This document shows positions 858 to 46,866 of a stretch of 64,000 nucleotides of DNA, piece after piece. Source of the DNA: Gemmatimonadota bacterium (GTDB lineage Bacteria > Latescibacterota > UBA2968 > UBA8231). Where the stretch lies: assembly GCA_018660835.1 (NCBI GenBank), contig JABJJN010000040.1, positions 1 to 64,000 of the forward strand. The letters are read 5' to 3'. Within the stretch, counting starts at the first letter, position 1. Every line of letters begins with the position of its first letter. The notes beneath the pieces were generated by a model that saw only the letters and a program-made list of their open reading frames with translations, searched no databases and was not told the origin of the DNA. The position numbers and the translations under genes were made by a program.

Positions 858-3221
858 TTGTACAGCCTCGAAGACCTGAACCCGGAACAACGCATCGCCG
901 CCGAGACCACCGAGGGGCCCTTGCTCATCCTCGCCGGTGCCGGATCTGGCAAGACACGTGTGCTCACCTATCGCATTGCGCACATGATCGATGCCCTCAA
1001 TGTCGCCCCCTGGAACATCCTTGCCGTCACCTTCACCAATAAGGCGGCGGGTGAGATGCGGCAACGGGTTGTCGATCTGGTAGGCCCCGTCGCCGAGCGT
1101 ATCTGGATTGGCACGTTCCACTCTGTCTGTGCCAGGCTGCTGCGTTATGAAGCGGAGGCCTTCGGGCTGCATCGAGACTTCACGATCTATGATGAAGAAG
1201 ATCGACGTGCCCTCGTGCGGCGAATCCTCAACGCGCGCGATCTGTCGGACCAGGATTACCCGCCCAGGGCTGTCGCGGGACAGATCAGTCGCGCCAAGAA
1301 TATGATGATCGATGTCGAGACCTATGCACGACAATCCGGTGCCGACCCACATAAGCGACAGATCGCCGACGTCTATGCGGACTATGAAAAAGGCTTGCGT
1401 GCCAACAAGGCCCTCGATTTCGATGATCTGATCGTCGAACCTGTGCGCGCCCTGCGTCGCTGTCCTGAGATTCTGGAGAAGTATCGACAGCGCTTCAAAT
1501 ATGTCCTCATCGACGAATATCAGGATACAAATCGCCCGCAATATCTGCTCACTCGTCTACTGGCTGAGGAGCATCGCAACATCTGCGTCGTCGGCGATGA
1601 TGATCAGTCCATTTACCAATTTCGCGGCGCCGATCTGCGCAACATTCTCGATTTCGAGAAAGACTATACCGAGACAGCCATCGTCCGTCTCGAGCAGAAC
1701 TATCGTTCCACCGCACGTATTCTGGCTGCTGCCAATGCGGTGATCGGCAACAATCTTGATCGCAAGGGCAAGAAACTCTGGACCGCTGATGCCGACGGCG
1801 ACATGATCAACTACGCCGAATGCGGCGACGATCGCGGCGAAGCGCGACATGTGGTAACGAAGATCGAGGCCCTGTGCCGTGATGAAGGCTACAGTCGCGG
1901 GGAGGCGGCCATCCTCTATCGCACCAATGCACAGTCACGCCAACTCGAAGAGGAACTGCGTCGCGGCGGCATTCCGTACACCATCATTGGGGGTCTTCGT
2001 TTCTATGAGCGGCGTGAGATCAAGGACGTGTTGGCCTATCTCCGTCTGCTGGTAAATCCCGATGACGATGTCAGCCTGCTGCGCGTCTTGAATGTGCCAA
2101 AGCGAGGCATTGGCAATACGACGATCGAGCGCCTCGTGAGTTACGGCCGGCAACAGCAACGGCAACTACTCGACGTGATTGTGCACGAACGTGAACAGGT
2201 GCAGGGACTCGGGGCACGGGCCATGAAGAGTCTCGGTGAATTTGCCGAGATCATGGAGGCGCTTCTTGGTGCAGCGGCACCTGGTGTGATGCTCCTGCCA
2301 GAATTGGTGGAAGAGGTCCTCGAGAAAAGCGGCTACCTGGAGGCGTTGCGTACCGAGGCGACGCCGGAAGCAGAAGCACGTGAAGAGAATCTCGGTGAAC
2401 TCGTGTCGAGCATTGCCGAATACGCCTCTGAACATGGGGCCGATGATGAGGATGCGGGGCTGAGTGCCTTCCTCGAAGAGGTCTCCCTCATGACCTCAGA
2501 GGATGAGGTCGATGCAGAGGGACGTGGACAGACATTGACGCTCATGACCCTACATGCCGCCAAGGGTCTGGAGTTCCCCGTGATCGCGATCTGCGGCCTC
2601 GAAGAAGAGTTGTTCCCCACCCTTCGTTCCATCGACGAGAGCAAGACCAATCCAGGCGCGATCGAGGAGGAAAGGCGATTGTTCTACGTCGGCATCACAC
2701 GGGCGCAGAAGCACCTGCTCCTGGCCAGTGCGAGTTCGCGTTATGTCTTTGGCCAGAGTCGGATGATGGAGCCCTCGCGGTTTGTCGCGGAGATCCCCGA
2801 GCATCTGGTGAAGGTGACGCAGGTCGAATCACGCACACCCTCCTGGGGCACGCCACCGGGTGCAGCACGCCGGCAACGGTGGTCTTCAGGTGACGGGAAA
2901 TCTTCCGGGGGCGGATCTTCCAAGTCCGGATCTTCCTCGTCAGGATCATCCTCGTCGTCCCGGGCAAAACATCTTTCCACGGCCGGTTACAATGCACCTG
3001 CAGCGAAGGCACCGGCCGGCGTTCATTATGAAATGGATGAAGGCAGCGCCCCGGACAGCAATGATCCCCTCGCCGTGGGACGTTGGGTCAAACATCCAAA
3101 TTTCGGCCGCGGCATGATCACCGAACGCGAGGGCACGGGCGAGGACACGAAGATCACCGTTCGTTTCGGTAGTATGAGCAAACGAATTCTCGTCGCCTAT
3201 GCTCAACTCGAGCCTGCCTAG
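858..3221 (+). CDS. pcrA: ATP-dependent 3'-5' DNA helicase, PcrA/UvrD type
   Basis: Superfamily 1A helicase of 787 residues acting in repair and replication restart. The Walker A motif GAGSGKT lies at residues 27-33, the DEYQDTN box near residue 219, and the late motifs 'TLHAAKGLEF' and 'RRLFYVGITRA' follow. Residues about 675-706 are a Ser/Gly-rich linker built from near-repeated GGATCTTCC-like codon blocks. The last 50 residues ('VKHPNFGRG...') match the Tudor-like tail through which PcrA/UvrD contacts RNA polymerase. The start is TTG at 858, chosen because the AAGGAAAAG ribosome site sits just upstream and the protein then begins 'LNPEQRIAA' as expected. The family is certain; PcrA versus UvrD naming is a convention. 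Confidence 0.95.
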   Translation: MYSLEDLNPEQRIAAETTEGPLLILAGAGSGKTRVLTYRIAHMIDALNVAPWNILAVTFTNKAAGEMRQRVVDLVGPVAERIWIGTFHSVCARLLRYEAEAFGLHRDFTIYDEEDRRALVRRILNARDLSDQDYPPRAVAGQISRAKNMMIDVETYARQSGADPHKRQIADVYADYEKGLRANKALDFDDLIVEPVRALRRCPEILEKYRQRFKYVLIDEYQDTNRPQYLLTRLLAEEHRNICVVGDDDQSIYQFRGADLRNILDFEKDYTETAIVRLEQNYRSTARILAAANAVIGNNLDRKGKKLWTADADGDMINYAECGDDRGEARHVVTKIEALCRDEGYSRGEAAILYRTNAQSRQLEEELRRGGIPYTIIGGLRFYERREIKDVLAYLRLLVNPDDDVSLLRVLNVPKRGIGNTTIERLVSYGRQQQRQLLDVIVHEREQVQGLGARAMKSLGEFAEIMEALLGAAAPGVMLLPELVEEVLEKSGYLEALRTEATPEAEAREENLGELVSSIAEYASEHGADDEDAGLSAFLEEVSLMTSEDEVDAEGRGQTLTLMTLHAAKGLEFPVIAICGLEEELFPTLRSIDESKTNPGAIEEERRLFYVGITRAQKHLLLASASSRYVFGQSRMMEPSRFVAEIPEHLVKVTQVESRTPSWGTPPGAARRQRWSSGDGKSSGGGSSKSGSSSSGSSSSSRAKHLSTAGYNAPAAKAPAGVHYEMDEGSAPDSNDPLAVGRWVKHPNFGRGMITEREGTGEDTKITVRFGSMSKRILVAYAQLEPA

Positions 3222-3330
3222 AGCCTCTCAATCCGGCCAATGCAGTTCCCGTAAGTCGTGATGGGAGTGGGACTTGCGATAGTTCCGGCATTCGAGTATT
3301 TTCGCTCACCAGCGCAACCGATCCGCTTGC

Positions 3331-3423
3331 CGATTCCAATCGATTCCAATCGACCGATTTCCAACCGACCTACTCGCGGATTCCCGATCCCGCAAAGACG
3401 CTGATTCCCTATCCCGTAGAGAC
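3331..3423. repeat. Short direct repeats upstream of mtaB
   Basis: The 220-base gap between the helicase and mtaB contains a 10-bp unit (CGATTCCAAT) in two exact tandem copies at 3331-3350, then a 21-bp unit at 3379-3399 and 3403-3423 with three mismatches, spaced 24 bp apart. I see no hairpin terminator or convincing promoter in the gap. The repeats may be slippage products; a regulatory role is not shown. Confidence 0.6.
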
Positions 3424-3441
3424 ACCGGCTACCTCCGACCT

Positions 3442-4896
3442 ATGCCTGACGCACAGATTCCACTCGAGCCTGAATCCGGTGCCCCACCGCAACGTGTGGC
3501 GATTCGGAACATTGGCTGCAAGCTCAATCTCTATGAGAGTGAGGCATTACGTGCCGGTTTTCACGAGGCGGGTTTTGATGTCGTTGACTTCGCGGATGAA
3601 GCCGACATCTACGTCGTCAACACGTGTACCGTCACGGGCGCCGGTGACGCCGATTCCCGCCGTGCCGTGCGGCAAGCAACGCGCGCGGGTAGCAATGCAC
3701 TCGTCGTCGCCACAGGTTGTTATGCGCAGCGACGCCCTGAAGAACTCACGGACGCCGGCGCCGGTCTCATCGTCGCCAATGGTGACAAGGCACAACTCGT
3801 GCAAGCCGTCACGCAGCGTCTGTCAGGACAACAGGAAACAGATCTGACCCCGAGAGGTCGTCCGAAGACGGAGACCTTTCTGCAGATCGGTGGGCTCGTT
3901 GCAGGTGGCCGCACGCGTGGCACACTGCAGATTCAAGATGGCTGTGACGAGCACTGTACGTACTGCATCATCCCCCAGGTGCGCGGCGTCAGCGTCAGTC
4001 GCCCAGCGGCCCAGATCCTGTCACAGGCAAAACGCATGGTGGACGGGGGTTACGTCGAGTTGTGCCTCACCGGTGTGCATACGGGTAGTTTCGGGCATGA
4101 TCAGCAACAGCCCGATGGTCTGGTGGATCTACTGGAAGCACTGGATCAAATCGACGGCCTACAGCGAATTCGACTCAACTCCATTGAGCCCAATTTTGTC
4201 ACCGATGCTCTCATCGACTTTGCCAGCACCTCTTCGCATCTGTGTCGTCACTTCCATATTCCCTTGCAGAGTGGCGACAACGACGTCCTGCGCCGCATGG
4301 GTCGGCGTTATGATCGACAGCACTATGCCGATCGAATTCAGCGCCTCGCGGTCGCCGCACCCGGTGCCTGCATTGGCGCCGATGTGATGGTCGGTTTCCC
4401 CGGTGAGACAGAGGCACAATTTCAGAACACCTATGACTTGCTCGACGGCCTGCCCATGGCCTACCTGCACGCGTTCTCCTATTCCCTGCGTGAAGGAACG
4501 CCGGCACAGCGTCTTCCTGATCATGCGCCGCGACAGGTAAAGTCAGCACGCGCGCGCCGCTTGATCGAGTGGAGTCAGCAGCGACGTCTCACATTTCATG
4601 AAGGTTTTGTTGGTGAACAGGTGGAAGTATTGATCGAAGAAGCAAGACGAGCAGATGGCAGTGGTCTCGCAACGGGGACGACGGACAATTACATCCGTGT
4701 TCTGATTGAGGATGGTGGCAGTCTGCACCAACCCCAAGTGCGCCCGCACCAATTGCTCAACGTCGTCATCGATCGCGCCCGTGAAGACGTGACCTTTGCC
4801 TCCGTCCTTGCGCCCACGCCTGACCCTTCATTGCTGGCCATCGAGTTCCCTGTCACCTCGCAAGCCATAGCCGACTCGATGGAACTGTCACAATGA
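3442..4896 (+). CDS. mtaB: tRNA (t6A37-C2)-methylthiotransferase MtaB
   Basis: Radical SAM enzyme of 484 residues that converts t6A to ms2t6A at position 37 of ANN-decoding tRNAs. The N-terminal methylthiotransferase domain carries the auxiliary-cluster cysteines C26 ('NIGCKLN'), C62 ('NTCTVT') and C93 ('GCYAQ'); the radical SAM cluster is C168-x3-C172-x2-C175. A TRAM-like segment closes the protein. The 'GCKLN' and 'NTCTVTG' forms are those of MtaB rather than MiaB or RimO. The ATG at 3442 gives a normal length for the family. Its stop overlaps the start of miaB by 4 bases (ATGA), so the two tRNA-37 methylthiotransferases are translationally coupled. Confidence 0.95.
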   Translation: MPDAQIPLEPESGAPPQRVAIRNIGCKLNLYESEALRAGFHEAGFDVVDFADEADIYVVNTCTVTGAGDADSRRAVRQATRAGSNALVVATGCYAQRRPEELTDAGAGLIVANGDKAQLVQAVTQRLSGQQETDLTPRGRPKTETFLQIGGLVAGGRTRGTLQIQDGCDEHCTYCIIPQVRGVSVSRPAAQILSQAKRMVDGGYVELCLTGVHTGSFGHDQQQPDGLVDLLEALDQIDGLQRIRLNSIEPNFVTDALIDFASTSSHLCRHFHIPLQSGDNDVLRRMGRRYDRQHYADRIQRLAVAAPGACIGADVMVGFPGETEAQFQNTYDLLDGLPMAYLHAFSYSLREGTPAQRLPDHAPRQVKSARARRLIEWSQQRRLTFHEGFVGEQVEVLIEEARRADGSGLATGTTDNYIRVLIEDGGSLHQPQVRPHQLLNVVIDRAREDVTFASVLAPTPDPSLLAIEFPVTSQAIADSMELSQ

Positions 4897-38024: not shown

Positions 38025-39017
38025 GTGCAGGTTCGCAATCCTTTCTGTGCTGCAATGTTGTTTGTGCTAACACTCCTTGCCGTTGCTTGCGGCCCCTCCA
38101 CCGATTCCGAGCCTGCATTGCGCCTGGCACTCAACTGGTTTCCCGAAGCAGAACACGGTGGCTACTATGCTGCCCAGGTCCACGGCGACTATCAGCAGCG
38201 AGGCCTTGACCTGGAGATACTTGGTGGCGGGCCCGATGCACCGGTGGTAAAGCGCGTGGCGACAGGTGAAGTGGAATTCGGCCTCACAAATGCAGATGGC
38301 GTGATCACGGCTCGGGCCGCGGGGATCCCCATCGTTGCCGTCTTTGCTCCCTATCAGATCAATCCTCGCTGTATCGTCGTCCACGAGGGCAGTGGGATTC
38401 GACAGATCTCCGACATTGCCAACTTGACCCTTGCCCTGTCACAACGACCTGCGTTCTCCCACTTCCTGCGGCAGCGCTACGAGTTTCCTGGGGTGAGCAT
38501 TGTGCCTTATCACGGCAGTGTCGCCCCATTCGTGAACGATCCTGCCTATGCGGTGCAGGGATATATCTTCAGCGAGCCTGTTGTAGCCCAGCGGCTGGGT
38601 GCGACGCCTCGAGCCCTGCTGGTGTCAGAGACGGGGTTCAATCCCTATGCGAGTGTCCTGATTACAACCGAGAAGCGGCTGCAGGAGCAACCTGAGACGG
38701 TTGCAGCCGTCGTGGCAGCCGCACAGCGGGGCTGGATACGGTATCTGGAGCAACCACAGCAGACGAATGAGCACATCCACACGCTCAATCCCGACATGGA
38801 TGTCGAGATTCTGGGTGTCGGTGCCGAATTGTCACGCAATCTCGTCATCACCGGTGATTCAATTCAAAAAGAGCAGATCGGTACCATGACCCTGCACCGA
38901 TGGCAAGTCCTCGTTGACCAGATGGTCGAGGCCAAAATCATCGATGCGGGGCAGGTTTCACCCGGTTCCTGCTTTGCCACCGACTACCTGCCGGATTCCC
39001 CGAGAACCGGGGGTTAG
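38025..39017 (+). CDS. NMT1/THI5-like substrate-binding lipoprotein
   Basis: A 330-residue periplasmic-binding lipoprotein. From GTG 38025 (with GGAGAG upstream) the signal peptide ends in the lipobox LAVAC with lipidated Cys22. The mature part starts 'RLALNWFPEAEHGGYYAAQVHGDYQQRGLDLEI', a close fit to the NMT1/THI5 family that binds pyrimidine thiamine precursors, and continues 'GEVEFGLTNADGVITARAAGIPIVAV'. Import of such a precursor is a reasonable guess but not proven; no thi genes are near. The stop codon lies inside the first copy of a 23-bp tandem repeat. Confidence 0.9.
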   Translation: MQVRNPFCAAMLFVLTLLAVACGPSTDSEPALRLALNWFPEAEHGGYYAAQVHGDYQQRGLDLEILGGGPDAPVVKRVATGEVEFGLTNADGVITARAAGIPIVAVFAPYQINPRCIVVHEGSGIRQISDIANLTLALSQRPAFSHFLRQRYEFPGVSIVPYHGSVAPFVNDPAYAVQGYIFSEPVVAQRLGATPRALLVSETGFNPYASVLITTEKRLQEQPETVAAVVAAAQRGWIRYLEQPQQTNEHIHTLNPDMDVEILGVGAELSRNLVITGDSIQKEQIGTMTLHRWQVLVDQMVEAKIIDAGQVSPGSCFATDYLPDSPRTGG

Positions 39018-39064
39018 GTTCCCCGAGAACCGGGGGTTAGGTTCCCCGAGAACCGTGGGTTAGG
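38996..39064. repeat. 23-bp tandem repeat, three copies
   Basis: Three adjacent copies with exact 23-base period at 38996, 39019 and 39042; the first two are identical and the third has one change. Each unit contains CCCC-gagaacc-GGGG, and in the first two copies AACC-ggg-GGTT, so each can fold into a small hairpin. Copy one encodes the last residues and stop of the binding protein; the rest lie in the intergenic region before the MamK-like gene. The unit has no long T-tract, so it is a poor terminator by itself. Confidence 0.9.
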
Positions 39065-39094
39065 AGGCACTCATTTCCCGAGGGGGATTTCGGC

Positions 39095-39124
39095 TTGACA
39101 TATTCTGGCCCTCCCTGCTTATAT
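39095..39124 (+). promoter_or_regulatory. Sigma-70-type promoter of the MamK-like operon
   Basis: A consensus TTGACA at 39095-39100, an 18-base spacer and TTATAT at 39119-39124 (or TATATT one base on). The implied leader of about 130 bases contains two hairpins: GGTGCC-N7-GGCACC at 39159-39177 and a CTCTC-ttc-GAGAG stem at 39211-39223. A CGGAG ribosome site lies before ATG 39260. Confidence 0.65.
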
Positions 39125-39259
39125 TTGACTGCAAAATAGAGCTTTAGGTCGAATTACTGGTGCCGCGTTTTGGCACCCTGATTTACGACCAGCGCCCTTC
39201 CACTTTGGAGCTCTCTTCGAGAGTGCTCCATTCCCGTCGACAGAACGGAGTATTGATCT

Positions 39260-40336
39260 ATGGCTGCTGAAGGTCCGGGGGCTGCTGCCTCCCAGGACGG
39301 CGACATTCTGCATGTCGGCTTAGATCTGGGCACGTCCCAAACCTCGATCGAGACAAGCACTGACATACGTCGGACAGTAACCAGTGTCGTGGGTTGGCCA
39401 AAGGATCTAATCTCCTACAAGTTCCTGCAGAAGCAGGTGGTGATCGGCGACGAATGCCTTGAACATCGCATGGCCGTCGACATGATCTGGCCGATGGAGC
39501 ATGGCGTATTTCGTGCCCGCCCTGAAGGCGAGCCGAGTGGTGAGGACGACAGAGAGGCTGAGGCAATCGAGCATTTGGTCTCCTACGTCATCGAATTGTC
39601 CGAAGCCAATCCCAACCAAGAAATTCGTGCCGTCATCGGCTGCCCCGCCCGTGCCACCCCCGAGGATCGTCAGGCGCTCATCGACGCGGTCAGCGGTCTC
39701 GTGTCGCACGCGATGGTCGCCTCAGAGCCCTTCCTTGTCGCCTACGGTCTGGATCTGTTCAATAACGCGCTCATCATCGACATCGGTGCCGGTACACTCG
39801 ACCTGTGTCGGATGCACGGCACGATTCCCGGCGAAGAAGATCAGCAGACGCTGATCAAGGCCGGCAACTACGTCGATTCCAGATTTCACATGCTCTTGCA
39901 GGAGAAGGTTCAGGACTCGCCTATCACCTTGGAGATGGCGCGCAAGATCAAAGAGAAATACGCCTTCGTGTCCTCCAACAAGGAAGTCATTGCCGTTGAC
40001 TTCCAGGTCGATGGCAAGCCGAAGACCTATGATGTGACCGACGAATTGCGTGAAGCTTGCGAGAGTGTCCTCCCCGACATGATCTCGAGTGCCAAGGAGT
40101 TGATTGTCAGCTTCGACTCAGAGTTTCAGAATGAACTGCGGCAGAACATCGTCCTGGCGGGTGGTGGCAGTCAGATTCGGGGATTGGGCGAGGAAGTTCG
40201 TTCAAATCTCACCGAGTTTGGTCCCTGTCGCGTCAGCACGGCTGAAGACCCGATTTACGCCGGTGCCCATGGGGCTCTGAGACTGGCAACGGATATGCCA
40301 GAATCCGAGTGGCGGCGTCACGCAATCTCCAAGTAA
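39260..40336 (+). CDS. MamK-like bacterial actin
   Basis: A 358-residue actin-superfamily ATPase. It carries phosphate-1 loop 'GLDLGTSQTSIETS' (20-33), 'SVVGWPKDLI' (42-51), 'VIGDECLEHR' (61-70), 'AVIGCPARATPED' (124-136), 'ASEPFLVAYGLD' with Glu156, phosphate-2 loop 'IIDIGAGTLDLC' (172-183), 'KAGNYVDSR' (200-208) and adenosine motif 'LAGGGSQIRGL' (299-309). From memory of Magnetospirillum MamK, these blocks match it in order and spacing, including the Glu of 'SEPF' that is needed for ATP turnover there; MreB, ParM and FtsA lack this combination. MamK filaments align magnetosomes, but no other mam gene is present here. The first 15 residues are Ala/Gly-rich and differ from MamK. A coiled-coil gene follows in the same transcript. 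Confidence 0.9.
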   Translation: MAAEGPGAAASQDGDILHVGLDLGTSQTSIETSTDIRRTVTSVVGWPKDLISYKFLQKQVVIGDECLEHRMAVDMIWPMEHGVFRARPEGEPSGEDDREAEAIEHLVSYVIELSEANPNQEIRAVIGCPARATPEDRQALIDAVSGLVSHAMVASEPFLVAYGLDLFNNALIIDIGAGTLDLCRMHGTIPGEEDQQTLIKAGNYVDSRFHMLLQEKVQDSPITLEMARKIKEKYAFVSSNKEVIAVDFQVDGKPKTYDVTDELREACESVLPDMISSAKELIVSFDSEFQNELRQNIVLAGGGSQIRGLGEEVRSNLTEFGPCRVSTAEDPIYAGAHGALRLATDMPESEWRRHAISK

Positions 40337-40443
40337 TGGATCGCCAACCGACGGCCTGTCTGATCTTGGCCACCCAGAATATCGTCTCCCCGATGATACT
40401 CCCTTCGTCCTGGCACCCCTTCGTGGTAGGATTCTGAGGAACC

Positions 40444-40980
40444 ATGGGTCTTCTAGCATTTCTAACATCATCTCGACTTAAGGCGGAACTTACGCGCCAG
40501 CGGGATGAGATTGCCCGCATGCACCAGATGCTGGATATGGAGGTCAGTCAACGGCAGGAAGCCGAACGACAGACCGAAGAACAGACGCAGCAAATGCAGG
40601 ACATGGAGTCGAAAACATCGACTCTCGCCGAGCAGCTGGAGGTAAAAGAGCAAGCACTCCAACAGGAGCAGCAGAGGCTGCAGAAGCAGTTGGAGGAAGA
40701 AGGCCGTCGTCTGCAAGAAGAAGCGGAGCGCAAGATCCGTGATACGGAGGTGCGCATTACGACCTTACGCCAGGAATTGGACGAAAAACAGCGCCAGCGG
40801 GCAGATGTGACGGATAAGAATTCCAAGCTGGCCGAAAAATCAGCGCAACTTGAGCAGCGTCTGAACGAAATGGCAACAGCCGTCCAGCAGGGCGAAGATC
40901 GCGTGCGTGCGCTGGAAGGCGAGAAGCAAGAATTGCAGAAGGATCTCGACAAGATCATGGGAAATCTGACCAAGTGGTAG
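40444..40980 (+). CDS. Coiled-coil protein in operon with the MamK-like actin
   Basis: A 178-residue protein that is coiled coil for nearly all of its length (residues about 10-175), rich in Gln, Glu, Lys and Arg with regular hydrophobic heptad positions ('QLEVKEQALQQEQQRLQKQLEEEGRRLQEE'). A short hydrophobic start 'MGLLAFLTSS' may touch the membrane. It has no other domain. ATG at 40444 is preceded by TGAGGAACC; the gap from the actin gene is 107 bases and holds no terminator. A strong terminator follows. It could be a filament-associated or membrane-linking partner of the actin; this is inferred from adjacency only. Confidence 0.82.
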   Translation: MGLLAFLTSSRLKAELTRQRDEIARMHQMLDMEVSQRQEAERQTEEQTQQMQDMESKTSTLAEQLEVKEQALQQEQQRLQKQLEEEGRRLQEEAERKIRDTEVRITTLRQELDEKQRQRADVTDKNSKLAEKSAQLEQRLNEMATAVQQGEDRVRALEGEKQELQKDLDKIMGNLTKW

Positions 40981-41040
40981 CAGCCCTTATGTAGGCCGAA
41001 TCGAGATTTCCTGGTGTTTCGGTTTTGTCATTTTGCCCAA

Positions 41041-41083
41041 GGCCCCTAGGTGACACACTTGTGCCACGGGGCCGTTTTTTTTT
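41041..41083 (+). terminator. Rho-independent terminator after the coiled-coil gene
   Basis: GGCCCC at 41041-41046 pairs with GGGGCC at 41068-41073, extended inward by GTG/CAC and a CACA/TGTG inner stem, then nine T residues at 41075-41083. It lies 60 bases after the coiled-coil stop and closes the two-gene unit. Confidence 0.9.
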
Positions 41084-43227: not shown

Positions 43228-46200
43228 TTAGTCAGTGGCGTCGTGAACTACGGTGTGGGTAGCCACCGTATCGTTGGAACCTGACTTCAACCTCACCATC
43301 TGCGCATCAACTTCCCTTCTGACGCGTTCGGCCGCTTCGATCTTCACCACTTCGAAACCACGTATTTTCTGCGCTTCAGCGGCGATCTGTGTGCAGCGTT
43401 CGAGATTCTCTGCATCCAGGCTGTCGACAAGCCGTGCGCACAATTCTACATACCAATCAATCAACGAACGCTCCACCCGACGACAGGCAGAGAGACCAAA
43501 CAGATCCCATGGCCGGCCCCGCAAGCGGCGCATTCGATAGAGCAACGCCATCAGCGGCCGCGTCCACGTACCGACACGAATCTTGCCTACGCCCAGCCAG
43601 CGCAACGCCGGCGGGTGCAGATGTCGTTCAACACGGACCTTGCCATCGAAGCGATCAATCATTCGTTGCTCCGCTTCCCCGTGGGCCAGCAGTCTGGCGA
43701 CTTCGTACTCGTCCTTGTATGTCATCAGTTGATGCAGAGACTTGGCCACAGTCTCCGTCAGCTGTGAGTCAAATCCGTGTAACCTTTCCGCATTCCTGAC
43801 CCCCTTCACGATCTCCACGTAGCGCGCAGCATAGTCGAGATCCTGATAGTCAACTAGATGTCGTATACGACGGCTGATCGTTTCGGCGTGCTCAGGCGGC
43901 AGGTCGAGTGTGTCGAGGGCCTGATCATGTAGCTGTCGTGCTTTGCCATTCCCCAATGCGACACGCTGCAGTTGGATCGCCGCTGTCGCCGTTGGCATAA
44001 CACCGCCAAGCGCATCCTGCAGGCGCTGTGGATCTGCCACTGCCAATCGTCCCCAGCGAAATGCCTGAATATTGGTGTCAGCCTCTTTGCCATTGAACAC
44101 CAGGCCCGCTTCGATCGCTGCCGCACTGACAGGGAGCAACCCAGCCTGGCAGGCGGCGCCCAGCAGGATGACATTGGCAAACAATGTGTCGCCGAAGAGT
44201 CTCTCCGCCATCCAGTAGGTATCCAGGAAGACGCCGTCGTCACTGCGAGTACAGGTGTCGACGATCTCCCGCAGTCCATCGGGCTCGGGAAACTCAGCCT
44301 CCGGATGACGATTCTGCTCAGCAGTGGGAATACGCGTCGTACTCACAACGGCGACGGTGCGTTCCGTGTCGGCGTAACGAAGGTTGTGTGACTCCGCGGC
44401 ACGGAACAGGTCAAAACCCATATACAGGTCGGCGCTGCCCGGCACGAGTCGATGGAACACTGGTTGGTGCACGCGGCTGAACTGAATGGGCGCTTCCACG
44501 GGCCCGCCCTTCTGCGCCAACCCTGTGTTGTTTGCCAGATACACGTGCAGACCGTCGACCATGGCGGCATAAGCCAACACGTGGGAGATCGTCACGACCC
44601 CCGTTCCCCCGCGGCCAACAGCATACAGCGTATAGATCTGCTGCTCATCGCTCAGCAGATTTCGCACGGGAGGCGCTGGCAGCTTGTCGATGATCTGCTC
44701 TGGAAGTTGACGCTTCAGTGTGGTCCCAGGTGCGGGAATTACGCTGACGAAGGATGGACACTCACCGTCGATGCACAAGCCATCCTGGTCACAGGAGGAT
44801 TGCCGGATCTGCGTCTTGTCACCAAAGGCTGTCGGCACGCGATAAAGTGCAGCGCAGCCCTCAGATTTTCTGTAGCAATCCCCACACCCCTCACAGATTT
44901 CCTCATCGATAACGATGTGACGAGAGGGTGTGATGCCGGCACGACGATTTCGTCGCAGCTTCTGCGTGGCGCATTCCTTGTCGAGGATGATCGCCGTCGT
45001 GCCGGCGAATTCGCGAAACTGCTCAAGTGCTTGTGGGTGCTGGGCGAGACGAAAATTGTGCACGCGCTCAGAGGCGGGACGGTGGTCGACTTCGCCAACG
45101 ATTCCCACATGTTTTACACCAAGGGCGAGCAACTCATCGACGACATCAGCGACACACCGCTGTCCCCCGGGCGTCTGCCCACCGGTCAGTGCCACGGCGC
45201 CATTGTAGAGCAAGAGGAAGGTGATATTTACCTCCCCCTGCACACAACTCTGAATCGCGCCGCGCCCGCTGTGAAAGAAGCTGCCATCGCCCAGATACTG
45301 ATAGATGTGCTGATTGCCATTAAACAGGGCCGTGCCTGAGTAGATCGATCCCCCGGCCCCCATCGTTGGGATATAGCGAACCCCATCATCATAGGCGCCA
45401 ATGGCGCGAATCGAACTACAGCCGATCGCTCCTCCGGGTTTTTCACCCTTCAGGTCGCGGAAGACGTTGTAGGGACATCCGCCGCACGACATGGGTGACA
45501 CGGCGGGGACCGGACGGAATCGGCGTGACGCGATCTGCTCAAAGCGGGTCAGAGCGACGGCAGCGATGGCACCCGTACGCAGATACGGCGCCAACCGTTG
45601 CGCCAGAACCTCTGGATCTACCTCGCCAAAGGACGGGATCAAGGTGGCACCTGTCGCGTCGCGCTCGCCATAGACCGCACGTACACCTTCGACGCCGAGA
45701 AGAGCCGCTTTCACTCCCTCCTCGACAAAGGGGCCCGGCTCTTCAACGACAATGACGGTTTCCAGACCCTGTTCGGTAGCAAAACGCCTGATGCCCTCTG
45801 CATCGAGGGGCCAACTGACCCGTAGGTGCAGAGTCGGCACGCGTGTGCCAAGCAACTGTAACGCCTGATCCACATCGACGAAGCTCTTACCACTGGTCAC
45901 AATCCCAACAGGCCCAGAGGCATCAGACCAATGAACCCGGTTGAGGTGATTGTCCCTGATGTATGCCTCAATGAGAGGCACCTTGGTCTCGACCAATTCC
46001 TGCTGCATGGGCAGCGCGCCAAGGGCCATGACAATCGGATGAAAACGCTTGTTGTATTGAGCGGGTCGTTGTGGCATTACCCTCGTGCGCGCCAGATCAA
46101 TCGTGCTACCGCCATCGCACACAGGCGTGACCAGCTTCATCGCCGTGACCACGCCAAGCCATCTACTCAGATGAACCGCGTGCATCCCAAGTTCGATGAT

Positions 46201-46866
46201 CTCGGCAACGGATGCGGGATAGAAAATCGGTACGAGACTTGAACGCAGAGCCCAGTCGCTGGTGCCTGGTGATACGGACGACTTGGATCGATGATCTTCA
46301 CCACAAAGAAGGACCATGGATCCGCGCCCATTGCTCCCTGCCAGATTGGCGAGCCACGTCTCATCTGGAATCCACTGCGTGCCGTGCGCCTTCCCATACC
46401 AGAAGGCGTCGACGTCACCACTGTCGGCGTATTGGCTCCCGAGAATAGCTGAGGCAGCCGTCTTCTCGTTGATGCCGAATTGGTGTACCGTCCGGCCACG
46501 TTCGTTGAGAAGTTCCAGGTGAGCGACCACCTCAAGGTCGAAGCCTCCAAGAGGTGACCCTTCATAGCCGGTGATGAAGGTCTGATTGACGTCGCCCGCA
46601 CCGTCGGTCTCGTCGTAGCGTTGTTTGTCGACCAATAGGCGAACCAGTGCCTGCATCCCCGTGAGGAATACGGGGCCCTCTTCCCGGGCATATCTGTCCG
46701 TCCAGGCGACTGAATCCAGCAAGTGAACTAGCTCTATGTTATGGTTTTTACTACGGTTGAACTTCAGTATATGAGTGGCCCTCGCATGCGGCAAGGTGTC
46801 TTGCCCACGCATGGGATGCGGGATAAGTTGCCACGGCATCCGCCTTGCAGCCCTGTGCCGATTCAA
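43228..46866 (-). CDS. Fused indolepyruvate:ferredoxin oxidoreductase (IorA-IorB)
   Basis: A 1212-codon frame for the one-chain 2-oxoacid oxidoreductase that decarboxylates aryl pyruvates to acyl-CoA with ferredoxin. The alpha half begins 'GPVFLTGMQALVRLLVDKQRYDE' and 'ITGYEGSPLGGFDLE'; a TPP-binding region holds 'GDGSFFHSGRGAIQSC'. The Fe-S region has 'MSCGGCPYNVF' and 'EEICEGCGDCYRKSEGC...C...C'. The gamma half shows 'AVGRGGTGVVTISHVLA' and 'NNTGLAQKGGPV', then a C-terminal DUF6537-type domain. The first 45 or so codons do not look conserved; the real start is probably between 46836 (ATG) and 46722 (TTG). Divergent from the next oxidoreductase. Confidence 0.92.
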   Translation of the reverse strand: MNRHRAARRMPWQLIPHPMRGQDTLPHARATHILKFNRSKNHNIELVHLLDSVAWTDRYAREEGPVFLTGMQALVRLLVDKQRYDETDGAGDVNQTFITGYEGSPLGGFDLEVVAHLELLNERGRTVHQFGINEKTAASAILGSQYADSGDVDAFWYGKAHGTQWIPDETWLANLAGSNGRGSMVLLCGEDHRSKSSVSPGTSDWALRSSLVPIFYPASVAEIIELGMHAVHLSRWLGVVTAMKLVTPVCDGGSTIDLARTRVMPQRPAQYNKRFHPIVMALGALPMQQELVETKVPLIEAYIRDNHLNRVHWSDASGPVGIVTSGKSFVDVDQALQLLGTRVPTLHLRVSWPLDAEGIRRFATEQGLETVIVVEEPGPFVEEGVKAALLGVEGVRAVYGERDATGATLIPSFGEVDPEVLAQRLAPYLRTGAIAAVALTRFEQIASRRFRPVPAVSPMSCGGCPYNVFRDLKGEKPGGAIGCSSIRAIGAYDDGVRYIPTMGAGGSIYSGTALFNGNQHIYQYLGDGSFFHSGRGAIQSCVQGEVNITFLLLYNGAVALTGGQTPGGQRCVADVVDELLALGVKHVGIVGEVDHRPASERVHNFRLAQHPQALEQFREFAGTTAIILDKECATQKLRRNRRAGITPSRHIVIDEEICEGCGDCYRKSEGCAALYRVPTAFGDKTQIRQSSCDQDGLCIDGECPSFVSVIPAPGTTLKRQLPEQIIDKLPAPPVRNLLSDEQQIYTLYAVGRGGTGVVTISHVLAYAAMVDGLHVYLANNTGLAQKGGPVEAPIQFSRVHQPVFHRLVPGSADLYMGFDLFRAAESHNLRYADTERTVAVVSTTRIPTAEQNRHPEAEFPEPDGLREIVDTCTRSDDGVFLDTYWMAERLFGDTLFANVILLGAACQAGLLPVSAAAIEAGLVFNGKEADTNIQAFRWGRLAVADPQRLQDALGGVMPTATAAIQLQRVALGNGKARQLHDQALDTLDLPPEHAETISRRIRHLVDYQDLDYAARYVEIVKGVRNAERLHGFDSQLTETVAKSLHQLMTYKDEYEVARLLAHGEAEQRMIDRFDGKVRVERHLHPPALRWLGVGKIRVGTWTRPLMALLYRMRRLRGRPWDLFGLSACRRVERSLIDWYVELCARLVDSLDAENLERCTQIAAEAQKIRGFEVVKIEAAERVRREVDAQMVRLKSGSNDTVATHTVVHDATD

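Follow-up and report, generated by a model that had tools for sequence, protein, structure and literature searches.

A conserved pair of genes for a MamK-family actin and a coiled-coil partner, without a detected magnetosome cluster, in a Latescibacterota genome

Overview

The window, a 64,000-nucleotide stretch of contig JABJJN010000040.1, encodes an actin of the MamK family followed by a dedicated coiled-coil protein. The two probably constitute a unit that acts outside any magnetosome system, in which a filament and a rod-shaped linker would position or partition a cell structure. MamK is the actin that aligns magnetosomes in magnetotactic bacteria, and magnetosome MamK forms an ATP-dependent double-stranded filament. 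MamK homologues in non-magnetotactic bacteria are already known, and excerpts of the literature propose horizontal transfer or a relic as their origin (PMC5955933).

Organization of the locus

The unit comprises four elements:

39095..39125, + strand: promoter, with TTGACA at 39095-39100, a 19-nt spacer and TATATT at 39120-39125
39260..40336, + strand: MamK-family actin gene, 358 aa; the protein has a short extension at its N-terminus and, after 'HGVF', an insertion specific to the clade
40444..40980, + strand: coiled-coil partner gene, 178 aa, predicted continuous helix over residues 3-177
41041..41083, + strand: terminator-like element, a GGCCCC/GGGGCC stem (41041-41073) followed by nine T

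The sequence-only reading had described a 358-aa actin and a 178-aa coiled coil within 39095-41083; both open reading frames stand, and the motif blocks that it had matched to MamK are all present in the actin. The TTGACA element of its promoter stands, while its -10 hexamer, TTATAT (39119-39124, 18-nt spacer), is one base off: it agrees with TATAAT at 3/6 positions, against 5/6 for TATATT with the 19-nt spacer. In the same family, TTGACA precedes the actin at 9/9 loci. Between the window and its nearest relative, a pair with synonymous sites near saturation (dS 1.6 and 2.0 for the two genes), the block of about 72 nt around TTGACA shows 3 differences. The promoter is missing from the output of a standard promoter scan of the window. 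As for the terminator, the stem and the nine T are present, while the folding energy of the stem is ordinary (z -1.42; 19/200 shuffles equally good) and the element was missed by a standard scan. The stem and T-run are also found in the nearest relative; five of seven loci have no five-T run within 200 nt.

Three tandem copies of a unit of about 23 bases (TTCCCCGAGAACCGGGGGTTAGG and variants) occupy window positions 38995-39066, between an NMT1-like gene and the promoter; the repeat is absent from the nearest relative. Ten flanking window genes were scanned for domains: nine carry ordinary enzyme or transporter domains and the tenth none, and no cargo gene linked to the pair is found among them. 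A large protein on the minus strand (43228-46866), combining POR, TPP_enzyme_C and DUF6537, is a constant right-hand neighbour in the 8 loci reaching that far.

Family assignment of the actin

Judged from its sequence, the window actin belongs to the MamK family. It passes the NCBIfam MamK model NF040964 with 412.8 bits (curated cut-off 400); two homologues scanned with the same model scored 411.0 (G045) and, just below the cut-off, 397.4 bits (G019, from a sister family). The models for BeeR (NF053558, 203.4 bits against a cut-off of 530), MreB (TIGR00904, 44.8 against 365.75), ParM (14.9 against 417) and Alp7A (13.7 against 22) all failed. The earlier assignment as MamK-like, and not as a member of another actin family, is therefore borne out by the profile models, and the trees agree with it. 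Among relatives of solved structure, three MamK entries rank first by sequence (E 2.7e-87), with BeeR next. A Foldseek search with the predicted actin structure, which is of modest confidence (pLDDT 68), returns MamK as the top three hits and the fifth, with BeeR fourth, adding little to the sequence evidence.

The closest characterized protein is MamK from Magnetospirillum magneticum AMB-1 (PDB 5ljv, 5ljw, 5jyg), which has the same fold and 44% aligned identity to the window actin; identity is 39-41% to two SAR324 MamKs and 33% to BeeR. Equivalents of MamK Glu143 and Asp161 (E143/D161), for which an excerpt of PMC5059902 reports loss of ATPase activity and of filament dynamics on mutation, are retained in 19/19 non-MreB alignment rows, the window included, where they are E156 and D174. 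Compared with AMB-1 MamK, the clade has 5-13 inserted residues around AMB-1 positions 83-90, and the window actin has a longer N-terminus and a different partner; its genome has no match to MamP or MamQ. With start codons picked by script, 19-32 residues precede the column of AMB-1 residue 15 in the clade, versus 0-15 in six SAR324 rows. BeeR from Verrucomicrobiota (PDB 8r2n), as described in passages of PMC11929497, is likewise related to MamK, non-magnetotactic, endowed with a disordered N-terminal extension and without an assigned function. Besides its lower identity and failed model, the window actin differs from BeeR in its extension, which is shorter than the 30-50 residues described there. 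BeeR filaments are three-stranded, those of MamK double-stranded. AMB-1 itself also has a mamK homologue, MamK-like, outside the main island, in a genomic islet; however, AMB-1 is magnetotactic and the islet carries other mam-like genes (PMC2818848, excerpt).

In the phylogenetic trees, eleven actins of the phylum form one clade outside the AMB-1 and SAR324 MamKs (support 90/95 in the first tree and 94/94 in the second, not starred). Both trees were built without G053 and G018, where the actin is split by frame breaks, and without G063, where it is cut at a contig end; the second also lacks the MreB of the SAR324 genome G064. The AU test keeps two alternative topologies, which join the clade to AMB-1 MamK (p-AU 0.152) or to SAR324 MamK (p-AU 0.068). 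As neither joining is rejected, BeeR is placed with uncertainty and the trees contain just two lineages of MamK, the clade is called MamK family and not a proven sister of magnetosome MamK.

The coiled-coil partner

The partner is predicted as a single helix spanning residues 3-177 (mean pLDDT 93.8), which, if continuous, would be about 26 nm long at 0.15 nm per residue. In seven sequences, invariant positions are concentrated at the start (19/31) and the end (6/9) of the protein, versus 28/138 in the middle, and the partner of G045 has an 11-residue insertion within the variable part. Conserved ends flanking a free middle are the pattern expected of a two-ended linker, and the partner may be one.

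A filament with a rod could also act beneath the membrane as a scaffold for cell shape or the envelope, in the manner of MreB or crescentin, which we consider very unlikely. The hydrophobic N-terminus of the partner (MGLLAFLT) could sit on a membrane, and the crescentin model PF19220 gives a weak match. Yet this match (16 bits against a cut-off of 100, failed) is accompanied by many other weak coiled-coil matches, and the genome of the window (G000) encodes its own MreB, a separate gene (450 bits) to which the window actin is 23% identical. A membrane anchor at the N-terminus was rejected as a candidate, the hydrophobic moment of residues 1-18 being unremarkable (0.24).

Distribution and conservation of the pair

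Among 64 genomes of the phylum, the actin is found in 14: 9/25 in the family of the window, 5/22 across three further families within the class and 0/17 elsewhere. A partner match is present in 9/64, all within the family; at E <= 1e-8, none of the 39 genomes outside it has one. The sequence-only reading had treated the two genes as a unit, and in relatives they do remain together, the partner directly following the actin in 8/8 same-family loci showing both. No intact partner without the actin was found among the 64 genomes. In G063, the ninth actin-bearing genome of the family, the contig ends inside the actin. In two genomes the genes are broken: in G053 both are frame-shifted, possibly by an assembly error, and in G060 both have decayed to fragments in different frames (L114, about 3110-3466, minus strand), still flanked, as in the window, by the NMT1-like and Gfo/Idh genes.

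The dN/dS ratios range over 0.03-0.16 for the actin (19/21 pairs) and 0.04-0.27 for the partner (12/21 pairs); they derive from seven of the nine loci where the partner is matched and are rough, many dS values exceeding 1. By this measure, both genes are under purifying selection. The right-hand neighbours are common to 8/9 family actin loci (the contig of G063 is too short), and the left-hand ones vary between genera. In G061 and G043 the right-hand genes are kept and the pair is absent; of the 16 genomes of the family that lack the actin, 13 were searched for the neighbour and 3 have it. The actin is probably dispensable, as none was found in 16/25 genomes of the family, although many of these are incomplete.

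Search for magnetosome genes

The absence of other mam genes, previously noted around the pair, extends genome-wide for two mam families: the MamP and MamQ models match nothing in the whole of G000 (about 93% complete) at E <= 0.001 and 0.01, nor in its closest relative, G059. Nine widely conserved mam genes, among them those for MamB, MamE, MamI, MamM and MamO, are named in an excerpt of PMC12713370; the genome-wide model search covered MamP and MamQ. Within the reach of these two models, no magnetosome cluster was found elsewhere in the genome. The control was the SAR324 genome G064, whose mamK lies beside mamP-, mamE- and mamA-like genes, the reason why it is presumed to be magnetotactic. 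Both models matched it (MamP 250 bits, MamQ 190 bits), below both curated cut-offs. Ordinary control genomes also give sub-cut-off matches, 10/14 with the MamP model and 6/14 with the MamQ model.

These results bear on whether the actin is a magnetosome relic, the last surviving mam gene of an ancestral cluster, whether its retention was fortuitous or due to some minor function. Such an origin seems unlikely. It is in line with the proposals of transfer or relic cited above, and the same excerpts discuss a Latescibacteria genome with a magnetosome cluster (PMC5955933); nesting of the clade with either MamK group is unrejected; and sub-threshold MamQ matches occur in 15/64 genomes of the phylum, including 7/14 actin-bearing ones, G000 not among them. 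However, the MamQ cut-off (250) is reached in 0/64 genomes, the top score being 92 bits (SAR324 control, 190), and the four of the 15 weak matches that were scanned are LemA by Pfam (193-195 bits versus 86-93 for MamQ). Other points against a relic are the purifying selection, the dedicated partner, the conservation of the promoter and the best tree, with the clade outside the AMB-1 and SAR324 MamKs.

Actin operons of the sister families

Five genomes from other families encode a TPR protein and a short, linker-like protein ahead of an actin of the same clade. The short protein looks disordered by eye, and ends in ITIELQSH or a close variant in four genomes; a scan of one such protein matched nothing in Pfam or NCBIfam. 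In four of the five genomes the actin is followed by a ParB-like protein (about 204 residues), the contig of G025 ending before that point. ParB_N and HTH_ParB domains were found in the two ParB-like proteins scanned; that of G026 is 72% identical to that of G019, and that of G018 was recognized by eye. Close relatives of the sister TPR or ParB-like protein are absent from the seven same-family genomes searched, G000 included; the only ParB found in G000 has about 300 residues and 30% identity to the sister-family protein. That these short, TPR and ParB-like proteins stand in the place of the partner suggests one actin motor with exchangeable adaptors.

The sister TPR proteins score 145.2, 149.9 and 146.1 bits with the MamA model NF040959 (cut-off 200). 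Seven other TPR proteins reach 110-339 bits with it and a SAR324 MamA 204.9. Two TPR proteins, L073 (G026) and L074 (G050), score 339 and 272 bits, and no mam cluster was found there. The NCBIfam MamA model does not by itself identify MamA; identity by this model is doubtful because TPR proteins of genomes without a found mam cluster exceed its cut-off. An alignment of the sister TPR proteins covered 4 of the 5 (that of G018 left out). The segment preceding the repeats is no more than moderately similar to MamA (z 0.6-4.5 against shuffles in 8 comparisons). The sister TPR protein was thus not accepted as MamA: the layout is similar, but the controls span 110-339 bits and a model built from two SAR324 MamAs does not set it clearly above other TPR proteins, which leaves MamA as a possibility only.

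In the SAR324 genome G064, a minus-strand run (L117, 6255-9534) consists of a ParA-like gene, a coiled-coil-rich protein, a small protein and mamK. Near their ends, 'LFTSYEVVKK' is common to the two proteins preceding mamK.

A ParB_N and HTH_ParB protein adjoining the actin in the sister families, together with a ParA-like gene near a SAR324 mamK, would fit a ParM-like system for DNA partition, with the coiled coil (or, in the sister families, the ParB-like protein) as the DNA adaptor. This too appears improbable for the window. Neither of its two proteins has a DNA-binding domain above cut-off, the actin falls far under the cut-offs of ParM-type models, and no plasmid, phage or viral-contig relatives of it were found. 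In addition, a close relative of the sister ParB is missing from G000, and a search of the five sister loci for parS-like sites found none below 4 mismatches.

Proposed function

The reading we favour, with some reserve, is the two-gene unit outside any magnetosome system. The actin, which retains the catalytic residues, would use ATP to polymerize into filaments like those of MamK, and hydrolysis would drive their turnover. One conserved end of the partner might bind the filament and the other a cargo, the membrane or a second filament, whereby filament and partner could position or partition a cell structure. The sequence-only reading had likewise suggested a filament that positions something other than magnetosomes, with the coiled coil as linker or regulator; the MamK-family actin, the conserved pair and the failure to find a magnetosome cluster speak for it, while polymerization, binding and positioning are steps that we infer.

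By analogy, the closest precedent for a filament with a linker would be Desulfovibrio magneticus RS-1, where, according to passages of PMC12748827, the coiled-coil proteins Mad20, Mad23, Mad25 and Mad26 organize magnetosomes with MamK and the actin-like Mad28, with interactions in two-hybrid tests. In both systems actin-like and coiled-coil proteins are paired, in RS-1 to organize a cell structure; the Mad proteins, however, sit inside a magnetosome cluster.

Microcompartments are a possible cargo, because actin-like families are noted among microcompartment locus genes in an excerpt of PMC4207490 and G000 has 16 matches to shell proteins. Several of these matches are clustered, e.g., at C4:292371-296232. 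As a discriminating cargo, microcompartments were rejected: shell genes are present in 57/64 genomes overall, in 14/14 with the actin but also in 43/50 without it.

A wider scenario, to which we give limited credence, is that a positioning machine of non-magnetic nature, which predates magnetosomes, survives in this clade. Its adaptors would be exchangeable, either the rod or a MamA-like TPR protein with a linker and a ParB-like DNA/CTP switch; magnetosome chains would later have recruited MamK and perhaps MamA, and the sister form would be a partition system in which an actin works with a ParB-like protein.

Significance

MamK has served as the query in searches of open databases for magnetosome clusters, and it has been put forward as a magnetotactic marker; in the excerpt of PMC7449369, 2798 potential MamK sequences from metagenomes were reduced to 227 by a check of their scaffolds for other Mam proteins. 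No report of a constrained actin/partner pair of this kind or of the ParB-linked operon was found in the open-licence PubMed Central literature. That a MamK-family unit is under constraint where no cluster was detected is a warning against taking MamK as a shortcut to magnetotaxis. The unit also bears on the origin of MamK. How bacterial actins choose their cargo could be tested on the two gene arrangements, which are short adaptor systems.
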